64,000 bases of DNA from Methanobrevibacter sp. TLL-48-HuF1 (GTDB lineage: Archaea > Methanobacteriota > Methanobacteria > Methanobacteriales > Methanobacteriaceae). Positions 7,631-48,061 of the stretch are shown here, in pieces. The number at the start of each line of letters is the position of its first letter. The stretch's first letter is position 1. The position numbers were made by a program, and so were the translations under genes. The notes beneath the pieces are model-generated. The model saw nothing but the letters and a program-made list of their open reading frames with translations, was not told the origin of the DNA and ran no database searches. The stretch lies in contig NZ_CP081485.1 of assembly GCF_023617305.1 (NCBI RefSeq), positions 124,001-188,000 of the forward strand. Direction: 5' to 3'.

Positions 7631-10600
7631 TTAAGCAATTGTAATATTGTTTCCAACTTGGTATTCGTTCCAGATAGAAGTAATGATATATTTACCTGGG
7701 TTTAAGCGTATATTCAAGTTAGCTATACCGTTTTCATCAGTTGTTTTATGGTAGAATACACCGTTTACGTTAAATGATATGTTCTGCTTAGATAATGGCT
7801 TGCCTTGACCGTCTAATGTTTGTGCAGTGAAGTTGCTGCCGTCTAAGTATTTCATGTCAAGATCTTTGGTAATTAAAGTTGGCAATACTGTAATGTTGTT
7901 AGATACCCAGCAGCCTTCGTATTCAGCTGTTACGATGTAGGTGCCCGGACGTAACTTAATACCTAAACTGACAATTCCATCATCATTAGATACTCTGTGG
8001 TAAAATACTCCGTTGATGTTGAAGGTTACTTCCTGACCAGCTGCTACTTTACCGTCTTTACCAATTACTTTAAGAGTATAGCTGGATTCATTTAAGTAGT
8101 ATTTAATCAAATCAGAGTTATCAACAAGTAATGATTTGACAGTTACTTTATTTGAGTTTTCCTCACCGGTAACAAGATTATAATTGGTTATAATGTATTC
8201 CTTAGGAATCAGTTGGATGTTTAAAGTAGCTATACCTTTATTATTGGTAGATTTAGTATAGAAAACACCGTTAATGTTAAACTTAACAGTAGTGTTTACT
8301 AAAGCATTACCGTTGCTGTCTAAGAATAGTGCAGAATACTGAGTTGCATTTCTAAACATTTTAACAATATCATAGCCAATAACAGTAGATTTAATTGTTA
8401 CTGTTGAGCTAACTGTTGTGCTATTGTAAGTAGCTGATGCATTATAAACTCCGGCTTTTAAATTAATGCCCATTGAAGCAACACCACTCTTATTAGTGTA
8501 TTTAGTATAATTCACACCATTGACAGTAAAAACAATTGATGCGTTAATAATTGGATTTCCTTGACCATCAATTAAAGTAGCTATAAGCTTGTCTGTTCCT
8601 CCATGGAATTTAATAAGTTCATTAATACTTAACTTAAATTCTACAGGAATTACTGTTATGTTTCTAATCAAAGTAGCAGAAGCATATTTATCATCACCAC
8701 TATAATTAATTTCAACACTATGATTTCCACTAGTTAAATTATTAATAACCACTTTAGCACTACCATTGTTTACAGCAACACTTTCTTTTTTACCATCTAC
8801 ACTAACAATTACATTTCCAGTAGCATCTTCAGGTAAAACAATACTTACACTTAAATCATTGCCACTAACATTTGTATCAGCTTTAATATCAGATGAATAT
8901 TTATTTATTTTAAAAGTTGTATTAGCTGATGCAGAACCATATAAATCATTACCAGCATATTTAGCTATAACATCATATGTTCCACTACTTAAATTAGCTA
9001 TAGATAAAATAGCTTTATTGTCTTTTATTAAAACAGGATATTCCTTATTATTAACAATAAATATTATTTCTCCAGTTACACCATCAGTAACTTCCGCTTT
9101 AATAGTTACATCAGATCCAACATAAACATCTTCAGAAGTTAAATTTATAACAGACGGGAATTTGTTAACTGTTAAATTGTTTAGTGTTTTTGACGGAGCA
9201 TAATATCCGCTACCTTCAAAGACTACTTCAATCAAATGAGTTCCAACACCTAAACTAGCTATTGGTATTGAAACATTACCAAATTCATCAGTAACTTCCT
9301 TCCAAACTTTATCTCCACATTTAATTATAATATTCATTCCAGACAATTCTTTTCCATGAATATCAGTTAATGAGATTGTATAATTCTCATTTATAAATAA
9401 TTCATCATCTTTAACTACAATTACTGTTGGGAATGCATCAGGAGTGTTATTATAAACTTTATTTAATTGTGAAGCATTAACAGATTTATCTCCAAGGAAT
9501 TTGCCAGATACCAAATAATTGCCTGTAACTGTATTTACCTGAGTATTGCGTTTATCAATCATTACTGTATAATCACCATTAGCAATTATTGTATTGTTAT
9601 AAGCTTCTAATTTAGAGTATTTTACACTGTTTTTATCTCCAGTAATTATAATTCCAGTATTTGCTCCTCCAAGAACATCACCACCAGTAATAGGTCCAAT
9701 TCCACTTCCTAAAGATTTAATTGTATTATTAAATACTTTAAGATTTTTAGAAGAAGACATTATACCCATTGTAATATTACCTTTTGAGATTATTGTATTT
9801 CCAGTGACCTTTTCATCATTTCCCATAAGCTCCATAGCATAAGCTGTATGAGCATTAGCTAATATTGTATTGTTTATATAATCAACATTAACCGCCCCAT
9901 TTATTGCTTGTGAATATATTCCATAAACAACATCTAAAGCTTCAACACTAACAGAATTATTAAATAATTTACCTGTGATAGGGCCATCTACTTCAATAGC
10001 ATTTGCATAGTAATAATCACATTTTGAAGTGATGATATTGTCTGCAACATTTATGTTTAAACATCCGACAACATTATAATCACTGTCCATTACACTGACA
10101 AATTTTAAAGCATAGGTATAATTATGTCCTGTTACATCAATTATATTTAATTTAACAACAGGATTTTTAGAAGCTCTTATTAAAATTCCTTCAATAGTAT
10201 CAAACATTCCGCCGAAAGTAGTATATGCATTTGTAACTCTATTATTTATGACTTTAACATTATCACTATTGTCTATAAAGACTGCTGCACTGTAAGTTAT
10301 AGCTGCATAAGTAATTTTATCGTAATCAATTGCAAGAGAAGGCATTTTAGCATTGATAGTGTTATTTTCAATTACAGCACCTTTACAATCATCAATATGA
10401 ACTGGATGATTAAGAGTTTTGCCTTTACTTTGACCAGAATATATGATTGTGTTATTAACTAACTGTAAATTACTTACTCCATTTGCATAAATAGCCATTG
10501 CATCAGATGTACCAACATCATTAAAATTAATTAATGAATTTTTAACAATAACCTTATCTACATTTGTTATATAAATACCATAATTCTGTTTATTTATATT

Positions 10601-40440: not shown

Positions 40441-42423
40441 TTATTGTATTCTTTCACCGACTTCACATTCATCTGGAGACAATAATGCTGCACTTTCTCC
40501 AGTTGCAAGAATCATTCCTTCAGATAAGGTTCCGAATAATTTTGCAGGTTGTAAGTTAACAACAACAGCCACTTTTCTGTCAATTAATTCTTCAGGAGCA
40601 TACTGTTTTGCAAGACCTGCTACAATTTGTCTTGTTTCATCTCCAATATCTACCTGTAATTTTAATAATTTATCAGATTTTTCTATTTTTTCAGCTTCTT
40701 TTACCTGTCCAATTTTAATAACTACTTTGTCAAAATCATCAATACTAATTAAATCACTCATATTTTCATCCTCACTTTCTTTTAAGTTTTTCTGCAATTC
40801 TTCTTTTTGTTTGTTAATTACATCATCTTCAATTTTTGTAAATAACGGTTTAGCTTTATTTATTTTGTGTCCTTCAGCTAATGGGACTTTTGCATCTTTC
40901 CACTCATCAGGAGTAGACAGATTAATAATTTTAGCTATAGCATCAGCTTTATTTGGAATATAAGGTTTAAGTACATAAGCTAATGTTTTAGCCAGTTGAT
41001 TTGATAAATATAAACAGTTAGCTGCTTTTTGCATGTCTTCTTTAACAGCTTTCCATGGTTCCTGATCATTGAAATATTTATTACCTATTTTAGCTACCCT
41101 ATAAATCTCAAGCAATCCGTCTCTAAATTCAAAATCTGAAATATACTCTCCGACAGTATCTGGAAGTTTTTCAATAGTTTCTTTGAATTTAATATCTTCT
41201 GCAGAGGGATTTTTATATTCAGGTATTTCGCCGTCAAAGAATTTATGAGTAAATGTAAAGGTTCTATGTAAAAAGTTACCAATAACATCTGCCAATTCAT
41301 CATTATTTCTTCTCTGGAAATCATCCCATGAGAAATCAGTATCTTTGTTTAAAGGTGCATTTATAGTTAAGTAATATCTAAGTAAATCAGGGTCAAATTT
41401 ATCAACAAAATCTGCTATCCAAACAACCCAATTTTTACTGGTAGACATTTTTTCCCCTTCCAAAGATAAAAATTCTCCAGCATATATGTTATCCGGCAAT
41501 TTACAGCCATATGCCTTAAGAAGTCCCGGCCAAAAGATTGAATGATGATAAATAATATCCTTACCAATGAAATGGATTACAGTATCATTCCAATAATCTT
41601 CCCATTTAATGCCAGTTTCCCTTGACCATTGTGCAGCTGATGAGATATAACCTAAAAATGCTTCAACCCAAACATAAAGTACTTTGCCTTTAGCTTCATC
41701 AAGAGGTATATGTATTCCCCAATCCATATCTCTTGTTAAAACCCAGTCATTTAATCCTTCTTTAAGCCAGTTTCTGGCATAATTTCTAACATTAGCCGGA
41801 AGATTTTCATTATTGTTAATATAATCTTTCAAATCATCTTCAAACTCGCTTAACTTAAAGAAATATTGGTAAGTATCCTTAATAACTGGAGTGGAACCGC
41901 AGGTTAAACATCTAGGTTCATCAAGTTCAGTAGGTTCCAAAGCCCTTCCGCATTTTTCACAGTGATCACCACGTGCTTCAGATCCGCAAACAGGACATAT
42001 ACCTTCAACATAACGGTCAGGCAAAAACTTATTACACTTTTCACAGTACAGCTGCTGAATATCCTTTTTATAAATTAACCCCTTATTATATAATTCTAAA
42101 AAGAAATTCTGAGCAATTTCATAATGTAAATCATCAGTAGTTCTTGTAAAGTTATCTAGGGAAATATTCATTGACTCTACATCACGAACAATCATATCAT
42201 GATATCTTTTAGCAATTTCAATCGGTTTTTTGTTTTCGTTATCAGCTTTAACAGCAATTGGAGTACCGTGTTCATCAGTAGCACAAACTAATAGAACATC
42301 ATTATCAATCATACGATTATATCTTGCATAAATATCAGCAGGCAAGTAAGTAGAACGAATATGACCTAAATGACAGGGTCCATTTGCATAAGGAAGCGCA
42401 CATGAAATAAAAATTTTAGACAT
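40441..42423 (-). CDS. metG: Methionyl-tRNA synthetase
   Basis: 660 residues. Charges tRNA-Met. The class I signature HLGH (HIGH-type) is in [13 protein letters not shown] (about residue 18) and the KMSKS-type loop is [12 protein letters not shown] (about 325). A four-knuckle zinc insertion ([20 protein letters not shown] and then [16 protein letters not shown], about 127-175) is of the archaeal type. The C-terminal 110 residues ([20 protein letters not shown] to the end) are the EMAP/Trbp111-like tRNA-binding dimerisation domain fused in one chain. GGAGA ribosome site before the ATG. The DUF530-like and HTH genes follow on the same strand. Confidence 0.97.
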
Positions 42424-42705
42424 TAATCTTTTCTCCTAACTTTTTTAAGCATTAATAATTTTGTCATTCATATAATATAAAATTAATATATACAAAGTCA
42501 ATTTATAAATGTTTTAAAATAAGTTGAGATTAAAAATAAGATAAAATTAAGCAAAATTATGTAATTAAGTTTAAATTATTGTTACTTATGAAAAATAAAG
42601 TACTAGGTTAAGTTAACTTTTTTAAAAGAATAAAGAAACTATTTAATTAAATTAAGACATACATTATAATATTTATAAAGAAAGAATCTGTAAAGAGGTT
42701 AAAAA

Positions 42706-43269
42706 ATGATTAAATGTCCTAAATGTGGCAATGAAGTAGATTCAGATGATGAATACTGTAAACATTGCTCATATAAATTGAAAAAGAAACCCATAACAGA
42801 TAAGAAAAATATAATCATAATAGCTTTAATTATAATAATTATAGCTATAATTGGTGTTATTTGTTATTCAATGTTCACTACAGAACCTGTAAAAGTAGTG
42901 GATGTTGGAGTGGGAACTTTTAATTGCAGTAATGAATTGAATTTCACTTTAAACCAGACTGACGGCCCTTTTAAAGAATATATAGCAGATAATGGAAGAT
43001 ATACTGTAAAGGTATTCAATCTTTCTCAGGGAAGCTATTATTATAATTACGGATTAAGTTTAGCTAATAATGAAATTAAAACATATCCATCATCAGTTAT
43101 TGATAATGTATTAATATACAATTCAACAGCTAATGTGGGAGAATATGTCGGAGAACCACGATTTATTGCAATAATTGACAATAATGATAAAAACCTGCAA
43201 ATTCAAATTGTAACTCCTGAAGTGGAAGATACTGTACAAATAGCTAACAGCTTTCAATTTAAGAATTAA
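42706..43269 (+). CDS. Zinc-ribbon, single-membrane-segment protein
   Basis: 187 residues. MIKCPKCGNEVDSDDEYCKH with the following CSYKL is a zinc ribbon at the N-terminus (residues 4-22), followed by a basic linker, a hydrophobic membrane segment (IIIIALIIIIIAIIGVICYS, about 37-58) and an external domain of about 130 residues with no cysteine cluster. This zinc ribbon plus membrane segment plus outside domain plan is very common among Methanobrevibacter proteins of unknown function. The outside part (NCSNELNFTLNQTDG, YTVKVFNLSQGSYYYN) has several sequons. It is convergent with the next gene and overlaps it by 4 bases. Confidence 0.7.
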   Translation: MIKCPKCGNEVDSDDEYCKHCSYKLKKKPITDKKNIIIIALIIIIIAIIGVICYSMFTTEPVKVVDVGVGTFNCSNELNFTLNQTDGPFKEYIADNGRYTVKVFNLSQGSYYYNYGLSLANNEIKTYPSSVIDNVLIYNSTANVGEYVGEPRFIAIIDNNDKNLQIQIVTPEVEDTVQIANSFQFKN

Positions 43270-44894
43270 AAATCAAATAATGATTTTTGAGTACTCTTAA
43301 ACTCAATAATTTTTCCTTTTTTTATTTTATCAATATTTTCATCCATAATAGCTACTGCTTTAGATCTAAGTTCATAATCTGTTTTTTTAACACCGACCAT
43401 TTTAGAAAACCCTGGAAATTTTATATTAGCCTCTTCATTAAACCACATTTTCCTAAAAAAGTACCAGAAATGACCATCTTCATCTATAAAACACCATTTT
43501 CTGTAAGTTTTTGGATTAACATTTCTAGAATTTTTAGTTAAAGCTTTTTTATTCTCCATATAATCAAAAAATGGACATATTCTCATTGTTTTAGCTAATT
43601 CATAAAATTTATTTTCAAGAGCATCTTTATTGAATTCCCATATCCCCTTATTCGTAATTTGACCAAAATTATCTTCACAAGTAAATGCACAATTAAATTC
43701 TTCCATTACATATCTGCATGGAAAATCAGTTGATTTGAAATTTTCATAATTACAACAGTAATCTTTTGACAAACAGTTTTCTTCTTTTTCTAAAGTACAT
43801 AAAAATACATCATAAATATCTTCAAAGTTTACTTCTTCACCATTAACTTTAATTAATAAGTTTTCATTATCTTCCTGGCTTAATATCTCCATTTCATCTT
43901 TTAACTGATTAAAATCATCAATGGTGAATTTGTCCACTTTTTTAAATTTAGGAAATTCCTGGTCGTCCAATACTTCATCATCAAAATCAAATAATTCTAA
44001 TTTTATAGTATTTTCCTTAAATTTATTTATAAATCTTGATAAAATTGTATTTGGCTGATTAAAAGCAAATATTTCTACATTACAGCCCATGGATAATAAA
44101 AAATCAATCCATAACCTTTCTTCATTATTCCATTTATTAAATTCCGGCCATTTAAAAACAAAAAGAATTTCTTCACCATTATACGCTAAATATGGTCTAA
44201 ATGAATCAAAACATTCATTGTTTGAATTTAATCTGTGCAATATGGAACATGTTTGTTTTGAAGACAATTCAGCAAAGATAAATAAAAGAATATTTATTTC
44301 AAAAAATTCTTTAATAATTCCATGCTTTTCCAATTCTACAGTCATAAATTTAATAAAATCTTCATCAAAGTATTCTACAAAAATATCTAAACAAAGATAT
44401 TTATTGAAATCGAATAAATTCCTATCAAATTCACATTCTTCTAAAAATGATTCTTTAACTTTTTCATCTTGTTTATCTAAAAAAACCTTTAAAAAATCAT
44501 CAAACATATTTAAATGAAACAAATTCAAAAGATTGAATAAACTCTGATTACTATAATCATATTCATCATCAATTATCTCTAAAACATCTAAAAACCTATC
44601 TTTTATTTTAGCTTTATTAAAAGAAAAAGGCAAATCAAAATCATCTGAAAAAAATGACACCAAATCAAAATATTCTTCATTTGGTTCTTCCCCAACTATA
44701 TCCTCCAAAAAAAGATATTTAAATAATTCCCTCCAGAAAAAAGAATCTAAAAATACAAAATAATCAGAAGAGATATAATAATCTCTTAAAATTTTATCAG
44801 AAGTTTTGATATCATCTCCAACATTATATGCTTCAAAAATTTCATCATACTCATATTCTACAGATTTAACTGTAATATTTCCCCTATGTGTCAT
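43266..44894 (-). CDS. Uncharacterised cysteine-conserved protein, tandem paralogue 1, with PIP-like C-terminus
   Basis: 542 residues from the ATG at 44894, chosen because it aligns with the start of its paralogue (MTHRGNITVKS versus MVCRGNLTFQS). I do not recognise a named family. The N-terminal 250 residues are acidic and helical. The C-terminal third is most conserved between the two copies and has cysteines in LSKDYCC, FPCRYV, MRICPFFDYM and KWCFIDEDGH, an order that could bind a [4Fe-4S] cluster or zinc. The protein ends in QKSLFDF, which resembles the Q-x-x-(L/I)-F-x-F archaeal PCNA-interacting motif. With its twin it lies next to the primase genes, hinting at DNA replication or repair. 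Confidence 0.65.
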   Translation of the reverse strand: MTHRGNITVKSVEYEYDEIFEAYNVGDDIKTSDKILRDYYISSDYFVFLDSFFWRELFKYLFLEDIVGEEPNEEYFDLVSFFSDDFDLPFSFNKAKIKDRFLDVLEIIDDEYDYSNQSLFNLLNLFHLNMFDDFLKVFLDKQDEKVKESFLEECEFDRNLFDFNKYLCLDIFVEYFDEDFIKFMTVELEKHGIIKEFFEINILLFIFAELSSKQTCSILHRLNSNNECFDSFRPYLAYNGEEILFVFKWPEFNKWNNEERLWIDFLLSMGCNVEIFAFNQPNTILSRFINKFKENTIKLELFDFDDEVLDDQEFPKFKKVDKFTIDDFNQLKDEMEILSQEDNENLLIKVNGEEVNFEDIYDVFLCTLEKEENCLSKDYCCNYENFKSTDFPCRYVMEEFNCAFTCEDNFGQITNKGIWEFNKDALENKFYELAKTMRICPFFDYMENKKALTKNSRNVNPKTYRKWCFIDEDGHFWYFFRKMWFNEEANIKFPGFSKMVGVKKTDYELRSKAVAIMDENIDKIKKGKIIEFKSTQKSLFDF

Positions 44895-44989
44895 TATACT
44901 CACTGTAAATTATTAATTTTTTTAAACAGAAATGTTAAATCAAATATAAACTTTTTAAAAAATGAAAAATAATATTTTCAATTTAAAAA

Positions 44990-46606
44990 TTAAAAATCAA
45001 ACCTCATCTGTTCAGTATCATCCTTTTTCATACTTTTTTTCTGTTTTTTAAGTTTATCATCTAAAATAGCTACAGCTTTAGATTTAACATTTTCATCTGT
45101 TTTTTTAACACCTGCCATTTTAGAAAATCCTGGAAAATCCAAATCAGCTTCATCACTAAACCAGACTTTCCTTAAAAAGTACCATGAATGACCATAATCA
45201 TCTACAAAACACCACTGATGCATAGTTTTAGGATTGATGTTTTTAAGATACTTGGTTAAAGATTTTTTATTTGACATATAATCAAAAAACGGACATATTT
45301 TCATTGTTTTGGATAAATCCTTAAGCTTACCCCTAACTTTATCTTTATCGAATTTCCATATTCCATCATCAGTAATATGGCCAAATCCGTCAGTTACATT
45401 AAAAATAGAACTGAAATATTCCTCAACATACTTACATGGAAATTTGCTGGGATTTGAATCCCCATATCTGCAGCAGTAATCTTTAGATAATCCTTTATTT
45501 TCTTTTTCTGAAGTACATAAAAATACATCATAAATATCTTCAAAGATTACTTCTTCTTCATCAAGTTTAATTACTATATTTTCATTATTTAAATTGTTTA
45601 TTTCATTTTTCAGTTGTCTGAAATCATCAATCATTAATTTATCTGATTTTTCTAATTTAAAGTTCTCCTGTCCATTTTCATCCAGATTAAATAACTCCAA
45701 TTTAATTTTATTTTCTTTAAATTTATTTACAAATCTGGACAATGAGTTATTGGATTTGTTAAAAGCAAAAATTTCAACATCAAAACCTGAATTTAATAAA
45801 AAATCAATCCAAAGTACTTCCAAATCATCAAAGTGTTTTTTAGATTCATCCCACATGAAAACAAAAATCATATCATGGCCATTGAAAGCTAAATATGGGT
45901 TAAAAGAGTTAAAACTTTCCTTATTTAAATTTAATCTGTTAATAATTGACAATAGTTGATCTTTGGAAATTTTGGAAAAAATTGAGTTTACTACATTCAT
46001 TGCAGAAAACTTTTCATTAATTCCATATTTTTCCAGTTCATCATCAATGAATTTAGAAAATTTATCACCAAAATATTTCTTGAACATGGTAAAATAATCA
46101 TAGCGTCTTCCTTCATTATAATATTCATCAAGATATTTAAAACCGTGAGAATGGAGAAAAGATTTTCTGACTTTTTTATTTTGTTTATTGAAAAAAACTT
46201 CCATAAAATCTTCAAATAAACTTAATTCCTTTACATTCACCATATTAAACAAAGCATGCTCATTAAGATTTGCTTGAACAGTTATTATTTGAGAAAAAAT
46301 ATCAATTCTTTCCTGAATATCTTTAATATTACATGAGAATGGAATCATATCTTCATAAAATCTAGAATAAAGGTTTTCAAAATCAGTTTTGGAAAATTCC
46401 CTGCCAGTTATATCCTCCCAATAAATACAATCAAACAGACTTTTCCAAAAAGAGCTATTTAAAAAAGTATAATAACCAGAATAAGTATAATAATCAGCTA
46501 AAATCTGAACATCATTTTTAATGTCGCCATCAACATCATAAGCCTCATAAACTTCATCATATTCACATTCAAATGACTGAAATGTTAAATTACCTCTACA
46601 TACCAT
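44990..46606 (-). CDS. Uncharacterised cysteine-conserved protein, tandem paralogue 2, with PIP-like C-terminus
   Basis: 538 residues; clear full-length paralogue of the gene just downstream (shared starts RGN(L/I)T, FECEYDEVYEAYDVDGD, the acidic middle with LWIDFLL and the cysteine-rich end). Conserved cysteines: LSKDYCC, FPCKYV, MKICPFFDYM, QWCFVDDYGH. The C-terminus is EQMRFDF, again a possible PCNA-interacting tail, preceded by a Lys-rich linker. An AAGGGT ribosome site precedes the ATG. It is divergent from priL, with 129 bases between the starts. The two copies arose by tandem duplication and have since diverged to roughly half identity by eye. Confidence 0.65.
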   Translation of the reverse strand: MVCRGNLTFQSFECEYDEVYEAYDVDGDIKNDVQILADYYTYSGYYTFLNSSFWKSLFDCIYWEDITGREFSKTDFENLYSRFYEDMIPFSCNIKDIQERIDIFSQIITVQANLNEHALFNMVNVKELSLFEDFMEVFFNKQNKKVRKSFLHSHGFKYLDEYYNEGRRYDYFTMFKKYFGDKFSKFIDDELEKYGINEKFSAMNVVNSIFSKISKDQLLSIINRLNLNKESFNSFNPYLAFNGHDMIFVFMWDESKKHFDDLEVLWIDFLLNSGFDVEIFAFNKSNNSLSRFVNKFKENKIKLELFNLDENGQENFKLEKSDKLMIDDFRQLKNEINNLNNENIVIKLDEEEVIFEDIYDVFLCTSEKENKGLSKDYCCRYGDSNPSKFPCKYVEEYFSSIFNVTDGFGHITDDGIWKFDKDKVRGKLKDLSKTMKICPFFDYMSNKKSLTKYLKNINPKTMHQWCFVDDYGHSWYFLRKVWFSDEADLDFPGFSKMAGVKKTDENVKSKAVAILDDKLKKQKKSMKKDDTEQMRFDF

Positions 46607-46735
46607 ATATACTACCCTTAAAAATCTTAATTATTATTTTAATAATCAGTAATATTAACAATTTTCTATTAAAAAAGCAATAATGACCTTAAAAATAAGA
46701 TAATTTTTTAAAACATGAAATAAAATATAAAAAAC

Positions 46736-48061
46736 ATGGTTGAAGTTTCATTTATTAATCCATTGTCCAGTGAAGGAAGACAAATTGTTAAAGAGTACGG
46801 AGACTTAAATAAACTCTTTGATGAAGACGAAACACTCGTAAATGAAATAATACATACTGCAAATCAGAAAATATCCGACGATTCCTTAATTCCTAAATCA
46901 TATAAAGATTTAGCTATAAAAAGAATACAATGGGCAATTGAGAAAAAAAACAATAAAAATTATGCTCAAAGTGAATTTGAGTACTTAACAAATAGTAATT
47001 TATACAGACAGGATGTTGTAACATTCCATATATTATGTCAGGCTATAGCTATTCAGTTTAATGTAACTTCAAGAGAAACCAGACTTTTTATTGAATCTCA
47101 AGGAAAAATAATTGAAGAAAGACTTGCTAAAATTCCTCCAGGAAGCAGAAGTGAAATCATCGATGACATCTTAAGAGATATCAAAACTGACGGATCAATT
47201 CAATGGAAAGCCCTAAAAGATGTAATAGCTTCTAAAAGATTATCCTTAACTGATTTACTAATTAATCATGGAAATATTATTCTAGAAGAAGATGAATTTT
47301 TAGAGGAATATTCTGATGAATTTACTGATAGAAACCCCGACAGGATGTATAATATACTAGTTGGAAATAATATTAAGGAATTAATTCTCTCCAGACTTAT
47401 TATGCAAAAAACAGAGGAATACATCAAAAGAATCAAAGAAATGTCTTCCAGAATTGAACTCCATCCAGCCATTACTGAAATCGGAGAGGAATTAAAAGAA
47501 TTTATTCCAGAAGAAATCAGCAAATACAACACTTTCTATGCAGGCAGCGGCGGTATTTACGGTACTGTTAAAGGTGGAAAATTACTTAGAGAAGCATTTC
47601 CCCCATGTATCAGAAATACTATTGAAGGAGTTTCCTCTGGCGGACGTAATGATGCTATTGTATTATTATTAACTTCCTTTGCATCATATGCCAGATTATA
47701 TCCAAGAATATTTGCAAGTGATGAAAGCATTAAAGTATCTGATATTGATCCTGATTTATCAATAACAGAAAATGAAATATTGCCATTGATTTATGAAGCT
47801 GCAGATAACTGTTCACCACCGTTATTTGATGATCAGCCTCAAGAAAAAATCAACATCATATCAAAATTAGGCTTTGGTATGCACAGTGAAGTTGACATCA
47901 GTCATGAAGGGGAAACCAAATGGTACACTCCAATGAGCTGTGAAAAAATTAAAATTCATTTACCTCAGTTATGTAAACCTGACAGCTCATGTAAAGGAAT
48001 TAATAATCCCCTATCATGTTATGGGCGTAAAAAATATCAAATTGATAATAAAAAAGATTAA
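46736..48061 (+). CDS. priL: DNA primase large (regulatory) subunit PriL
   Basis: 441 residues. Partner of PriS in making RNA/DNA primers for replication. The N-terminal part is helical (VEVSFINPLSSEGRQIVKEY). The C-terminal iron-sulfur domain has FPPCIRNTIEGVSSGGRNDA (about residue 290), NCSPPLFDDQ, YTPMSCEKIKIHLPQLC and the last SSCKGINNPLSCYGRK, giving the dispersed cysteines that hold the [4Fe-4S] cluster of primase large subunits. No ribosome site is seen upstream, and the AT-rich sequence before the ATG suggests a short or absent leader. priS lies about 600 bases downstream, separated by one convergent gene. Confidence 0.93.
   Translation: MVEVSFINPLSSEGRQIVKEYGDLNKLFDEDETLVNEIIHTANQKISDDSLIPKSYKDLAIKRIQWAIEKKNNKNYAQSEFEYLTNSNLYRQDVVTFHILCQAIAIQFNVTSRETRLFIESQGKIIEERLAKIPPGSRSEIIDDILRDIKTDGSIQWKALKDVIASKRLSLTDLLINHGNIILEEDEFLEEYSDEFTDRNPDRMYNILVGNNIKELILSRLIMQKTEEYIKRIKEMSSRIELHPAITEIGEELKEFIPEEISKYNTFYAGSGGIYGTVKGGKLLREAFPPCIRNTIEGVSSGGRNDAIVLLLTSFASYARLYPRIFASDESIKVSDIDPDLSITENEILPLIYEAADNCSPPLFDDQPQEKINIISKLGFGMHSEVDISHEGETKWYTPMSCEKIKIHLPQLCKPDSSCKGINNPLSCYGRKKYQIDNKKD

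Follow-up and report, generated by a model that had tools for sequence, protein, structure and literature searches.

A predicted catalytically dead FAN1-like tandem pair at a variable metG-priL junction of Methanobrevibacter, with a likely PCNA-binding tail on one member

Two large tandem genes lie between metG and the primase gene priL of Methanobrevibacter sp. TLL-48-HuF1. The initial annotation assigned their products to an unknown family and proposed for them a role as replication or repair factor. This raises the questions to which family the two proteins belong, whether they can still be enzymes, and whether the proximity to a primase gene is of functional relevance. The window, i.e. the whole stretch of DNA analysed here, comprises 64,000 nucleotides of the closed, 1.95 Mb host genome; coordinates of the locus refer to this stretch:

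42706..43269, forward strand: 187-residue protein with zinc ribbon and transmembrane segment, convergent with A (4-bp overlap)
43266..44903, reverse strand: protein A, 545 residues from GTG; predicted degenerate FAN1-type VRR-NUC, Cys4 domain and PIP-like tail
44990..46606, reverse strand: protein B, 538 residues; paralogue of A, layout as in A, degenerate tail
46736..48061, forward strand: priL (DNA primase large subunit), a neighbour that borders the variable insert and does not belong to the A/B system

Both frames are intact at these coordinates, and the estimate that the proteins are about half identical was borne out by an identity of 51% across 521 residues (E = 5e-167). For A, the ATG at 44894 (542 residues) is a more likely start than the GTG at 44903, because Met 4 of A aligns with Met 1 of B. 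The cysteine sites DYCC, FPC, ICPFFDYM and WCF listed in the initial annotation were all found in A and B, as were the C-terminal ends QKSLFDF (A) and QMRFDF (B).

The family, however, is a known one. A Pfam scan of A and B gave no family at E < 1, VRR_NUC included, and no usable match was obtained with NCBIfam, PADLOC and PHROGs; a TenA assignment by NCBIfam scored 15 bits versus a cut-off of 130 and was rejected as noise. A family search detected L004, a single distant relative from a different genus, to which A and B align over about 340 residues with E-values of 6e-27 and 1e-19, respectively. L004 and two further intact relatives, L008 and L034, match the Pfam VRR_NUC family with E-values of 2e-15, 5e-17 and 7e-15. 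The alignment of A and B to L004 and L008 spans N-terminal FAN1-like helices, the nuclease core, and a C-terminal domain with four cysteines (Cys4). The core was located as follows:

44058..44318, reverse strand: VRR-NUC core of A, residues 196-282, by alignment to L004/L008 and hhalign (E = 2.7e-23)
45758..46009, reverse strand: VRR-NUC core of B, residues 200-283, by alignment to L004/L008 and hhalign

The hhalign value stems from the comparison of the degenerate proteins with intact relatives that share their layout (L034, L035, L004, L008); against VRR-NUC proteins of other layout, E was 3.4e-6, and the alignment covered the FAN1-like N-terminal helices. Searches of the PDB point to the same family: L004 retrieved FAN1 at about 1e-8, with the PD and EVK motifs aligned and the preceding helices aligned weakly, and a profile of the degenerate plus intact proteins retrieved FAN1 alone, at E = 5e-4. 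An AlphaFold model of A computed from four sequences reached a pLDDT of 41; its Foldseek matches were therefore set aside. The model of L034 had a pLDDT of 53, with higher values in the core, and served for the FAN1 region only; all 21 structures matching at E < 1e-3 were FAN1, superimposed over about 200 residues with 3.6-5.2 Å. Sequence and profile alignments firmly support homology of A and B to FAN1-type VRR-NUC proteins of the PD-(D/E)xK class.

A comparison with characterized and predicted family members delineates what was kept. The nuclease core and the preceding helices (ALxxYxxxGY...LFWxIIF) are common to A, B, and the FAN1 enzymes of human and Pseudomonas; A and B differ by their C-terminal Cys4 domain, by having no catalytic residue, and by the absence of a SAP domain from their Pfam results. 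The VRR-NUC proteins (PF08774) of Methanobacteriota (L004, L008, L009, L097, L101) possess a homologous core and, unlike A and B, have kept the active site. L004 and L008 have the Cys4 domain in common with A and B; several of the Methanobacteriota proteins carry TPR-like regions or zinc ribbons in its place.

The VRR-NUC signature consists of the E-PD-ExK residues and a conserved glutamine (PMC4103454). With L004 as reference (Glu 50, Asp 196, Glu 209, Lys 211, Gln 221), A has Asp 53 in place of the first glutamate, Pro 237 with the aspartate of the PD motif deleted, and Phe 250, Trp 252, and Glu 262 in place of glutamate, lysine, and glutamine. The corresponding positions of B are Asn 50, Pro 237 (again with the aspartate deleted), Phe 250, Trp 252, and Glu 263; the ExK strand now reads F-M-W or F-K-W. 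The orthologue of B in the sister species G041 displays the same losses, and none of the signature residues is kept in any of the three proteins. A and B are thus homologues of FAN1-type proteins but are predicted not to be active members, a loss of catalysis for which the alignments argue firmly. At the Pfam threshold, no other VRR-NUC gene was found in the host genome. A 279-residue frame of genome G001 (L010; IPSTIVYDDNKAKLVEIIDNKD) encodes another, independent VRR-NUC-like protein whose active site is degraded, which suggests that catalytic loss in VRR-NUC-like proteins may have arisen more than once.

The Cys4 domain comprises:

43389..43841, reverse strand: Cys4 domain of A, residues about 355-505 (Cys 369, Cys 383, Cys 396, Cys 443)
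45107..45559, reverse strand: Cys4 domain of B, residues about 350-500 (Cys 364, Cys 378, Cys 391, Cys 438)

A further shared cysteine had been missed initially, namely that of the FLC site (Cys 369 in A, Cys 364 in B), and the WCF cysteine is not kept in relatives, where L004 and L008 read W-A-F. Common to A, B, and the relatives are the cysteines of FLC, DYC, FPC, and ICP, with a spacing (by eye) of C-x13/14-C-x11/13-C-x46/50-C-P and additional invariant W, F, K, and G residues. These four cysteines are invariant across seven aligned archaeal and bacterial domains (A, B, L004, L008, L034, L036, and a TerB/zinc-ribbon protein of a Leptospira plasmid). A search of the PDB with the Cys4 profile gave no credible relative; the domain may plausibly bind zinc or an iron-sulfur cluster. 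The bacterial locus L036 (1374-4141) encodes in a row a NotI-type restriction enzyme, a methylase that by eye resembles Dam, and a protein combining a double zinc ribbon with the Cys4 domain; the domain possibly belongs to a restriction setting.

Both proteins had been described as carrying PIP-like tails:

43269..43289, reverse strand: tail of A, QKSLFDF (protein end STQKSLFDF), PIP-like, compared with RFC-L tails
44993..45010, reverse strand: tail of B, QMRFDF (protein end DTEQMRFDF), non-canonical, off-register by one residue

For A, this description is supported. Its tail fits the PIP pattern Qxxhxxaa, with the eighth position missing as in the host clamp loader RFC-L, which ends TDKQVSLFNF; RFC-L of the congener G038 ends KQTSLFDF, and the host FEN1 ends SSQKNLEDWF. 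With about 0.8 per genome, generic Qxxhxxa tails are too common to count; the evidence is the close likeness of the A tail to that of the host RFC-L. From composition, about 0.0035 exact C-terminal QxxhF[DN]F motifs are expected per 1800 proteins. Among those host matches that were translated or recognised, the only real proteins were A and RFC-L; a third was a 24-residue reading frame. The likeness to RFC-L and this low chance expectation are good evidence that the tail is a PCNA-binding motif, and A is likely to dock on PCNA.

The tail of B, in contrast, does not fit Qxxhxxaa and is out of register with Qxxhxxa. The initial annotation had held that a tail not kept in orthologues would count against its proposal, and this is partly the case: in G041, which possesses the sole orthologue of B, the tail is lost by a premature stop at LDDTLKK, and remnants of the tail DNA are recognisable past this stop. 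Because the tail of B is improper and that of its orthologue is lost, clamp docking is not a family-wide requirement. Of the PCNA-docked repair factor envisaged initially, the part concerning A stays plausible, given its RFC-L-like tail and FAN1-like relatives; a PIP motif in B is not supported.

Known clamp-binding proteins offer several points of comparison. A PIP box and binding to PCNA are documented for human FAN1 (PMC6213728), and complexes of FAN1 with PCNA, or with PCNA and DNA, are among the structures matched by the L034 model (9cl7, 9eoa, 9gy0); the PIP-like tail of A is located at the extreme C-terminus. With archaeal RFC-L, A shares the last-residue tail (QVSLFNF versus QKSLFDF), which is a short linear motif only, the rest not being homologous; likewise, EndoQ, a clamp-stimulated archaeal nuclease (PMC4858679), has the C-terminal PIP type in common with A and is otherwise not homologous. 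A canonical C-terminal PIP, QADLSSYF, occurs together with a kept active site in the intact VRR-NUC protein L097 of G049 (8919-10487, reverse strand), which has an N-terminal zinc ribbon and a near-identical copy in G046 (L098 region). Its surroundings look phage-like, with a portal-like neighbour by eye; PHROGs gave no match. RFC-L-like tails were also seen in two proteins of congeners, a 329-residue protein with a weak SAP match (L168:1040-2026, ending QKTLFDF) and a DUF1848 protein (L169:396-1358, ending QTTLFDF). Moreover, QLKLFDF is found near the N-terminus of a repeated 408-residue frame, presumably an IS transposase (L104, L110, L114, L120; G000 C1:243215, 888963, 1260495, 1607486). 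This motif fits both bacterial clamp and PCNA motifs, and clamp-binding transposases are available for comparison (PMC4549789).

Selection was assessed for B only, in one pairwise comparison with its orthologue in G041, the nearest relative among the genomes compared, by the crude Nei-Gojobori method. With dS = 0.44 and dN = 0.080, dN/dS was 0.18, with a minimum of 0.10 in the dead nuclease core. The values of priL, priS, metG, and most neighbours were 0.02-0.07 (0.02-0.05 for priL, priS, and metG themselves), that of a nearby tmk-like gene was 0.16; B therefore looks functional and under purifying selection, yet evolves faster than the core genes. In the tree, B groups with its orthologue (support 99/97), and A is placed outside. 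The duplication is therefore older than the split of the two sister species, and G041 must have lost A together with the adjacent gene of the 187-residue zinc-ribbon protein, which belongs to the same variable insert and is missing there too. Among the 67 congeners searched, no orthologue of A was found; proteins of the degenerate type occur in two of them, and the whole homologous set in 12 of 152 genomes of the phylum. Restriction to a few strains, without linkage to replication genes, had been named initially as a finding that would speak against a replication role, and this holds in part, the degenerate proteins being so far confined to two sister species.

The location of the pair was reported correctly: B starts 130 bp from the divergent priL, priS follows two genes further, and both primase genes were confirmed by Pfam. 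A conserved linkage to priL, which had been proposed as a check, was not found. priL is present in 65 of 67 congeners as opposed to two for the degenerate family. In G046, G048, and G038, nothing separates metG from priL; in G042 and G036, the space between them is occupied by unrelated genes. Across the genus, the metG-priL junction (42423-46736 in the window) takes up variable insertions: it is empty, contains a gene that by eye resembles inositol-phosphate synthase, or carries other cargo. Given this variable cargo, the link to primase is a coincidence of location, and we firmly conclude that there is no conserved primase link.

We consider it probable that A and B constitute a lineage-specific, catalytically dead FAN1-like tandem pair which works by binding or recruitment, with A tethered to PCNA. 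The ancestor would have been a FAN1-type VRR-NUC nuclease to which a Cys4 domain was joined at the C-terminus. Its gene would have been duplicated prior to the divergence of the two sister species, and A and B would have shed every metal-binding and catalytic residue but kept the Cys4 domain and the elements of the fold. PCNA would bring A to replication or repair sites, where its FAN1-like fold could bind flap or branched DNA without cutting and the Cys4 domain might recruit or shield; B may be a partner of A or a copy that has diverged and lacks a proper clamp tail. The function would then be accessory, lineage-specific, and outside the core primase machinery; it would consist in binding DNA structures without cutting them, or in recruitment there, for repair or defence. 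More tentatively, and with somewhat less than even confidence, the pair can be read as a clamp-tethered pseudo-FAN1, which lost the nuclease, kept or gained a PCNA tail, and binds or competes at flaps and forks without cleaving them; the tail-less paralogue would be its partner. To our knowledge, no dead FAN1-family protein has been described, and we found no paper linking VRR-NUC with M. smithii.

Alternatively, A and B could be accessory proteins of defence or anti-defence, i.e. DNA-binding pseudo-nucleases in a variable insert which act on invading or mobile DNA and not in chromosomal replication. This would agree with the patchy spread within the phylum, the variability of the insert, and the dN/dS value of B, which exceeds that of most neighbours. 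Furthermore, Cys4-domain relatives adjoin a NotI-type restriction enzyme (L036) or sit on plasmids, and intact VRR-NUC relatives are located in a phage-like stretch (L097) or next to DprA and a UvrD-nuclease (L101). We nevertheless regard such a role as unlikely: PADLOC gave no match, IMG/VR scans with four query sequences found no viral-contig relative, the A/B locus has no defence neighbours in the window, and a PCNA tail fits a housekeeping function equally well. Phage records contained no relative of B and, for L004, only an unrelated C-terminal CFI-box. The row at L101 (973-8462) encodes a UvrD helicase-PDDEXK fusion, an unknown protein of 441 residues, a DprA ending QVSLF, and the intact VRR-NUC protein, and is possibly a mobile repair or defence set; the DprA of G081 (L028) ends QQTLF.

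The loss of catalytic residues in both proteins, the absence of A from the sister species, and the truncated tail of its B could also signify decaying relics which have forfeited their activity and are being lost. This is improbable in view of two open frames of about 540 codons each, the retained Cys4 residues, and a dN/dS of B that is lowest in the dead core. Some PD-(D/E)xK enzymes shift their catalytic residues, and conserved acidic residues persist near the core (Asp 268 and Glu 278 in B), as a still-active nuclease with relocated residues would have them; since five positions (E, D, E, K, Q) were lost together, with F-M-W or F-K-W as ExK strand and the aspartate of PD deleted, we deem this very improbable. 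The coupling to primase favoured by the initial annotation, to which adjacency to priL in two species and the PIP-like tail of A would correspond, is largely refuted by the distribution described above, including the empty gap in the three congeners inspected, and we give it hardly any credence.

FAN1 has a role in cross-link repair and is a modifier of Huntington's disease, and structures of its contact with PCNA have become available recently. If the proposal is correct, a natural FAN1-like protein that has abandoned cutting yet carries a clamp tail would reveal what in the activity amounts to scaffolding. FAN1-type proteins occur in methanogenic archaea, among them the intact L097 with a canonical PIP of its own, and two genes of common human-gut archaea, left unannotated by every library searched, are given a name.
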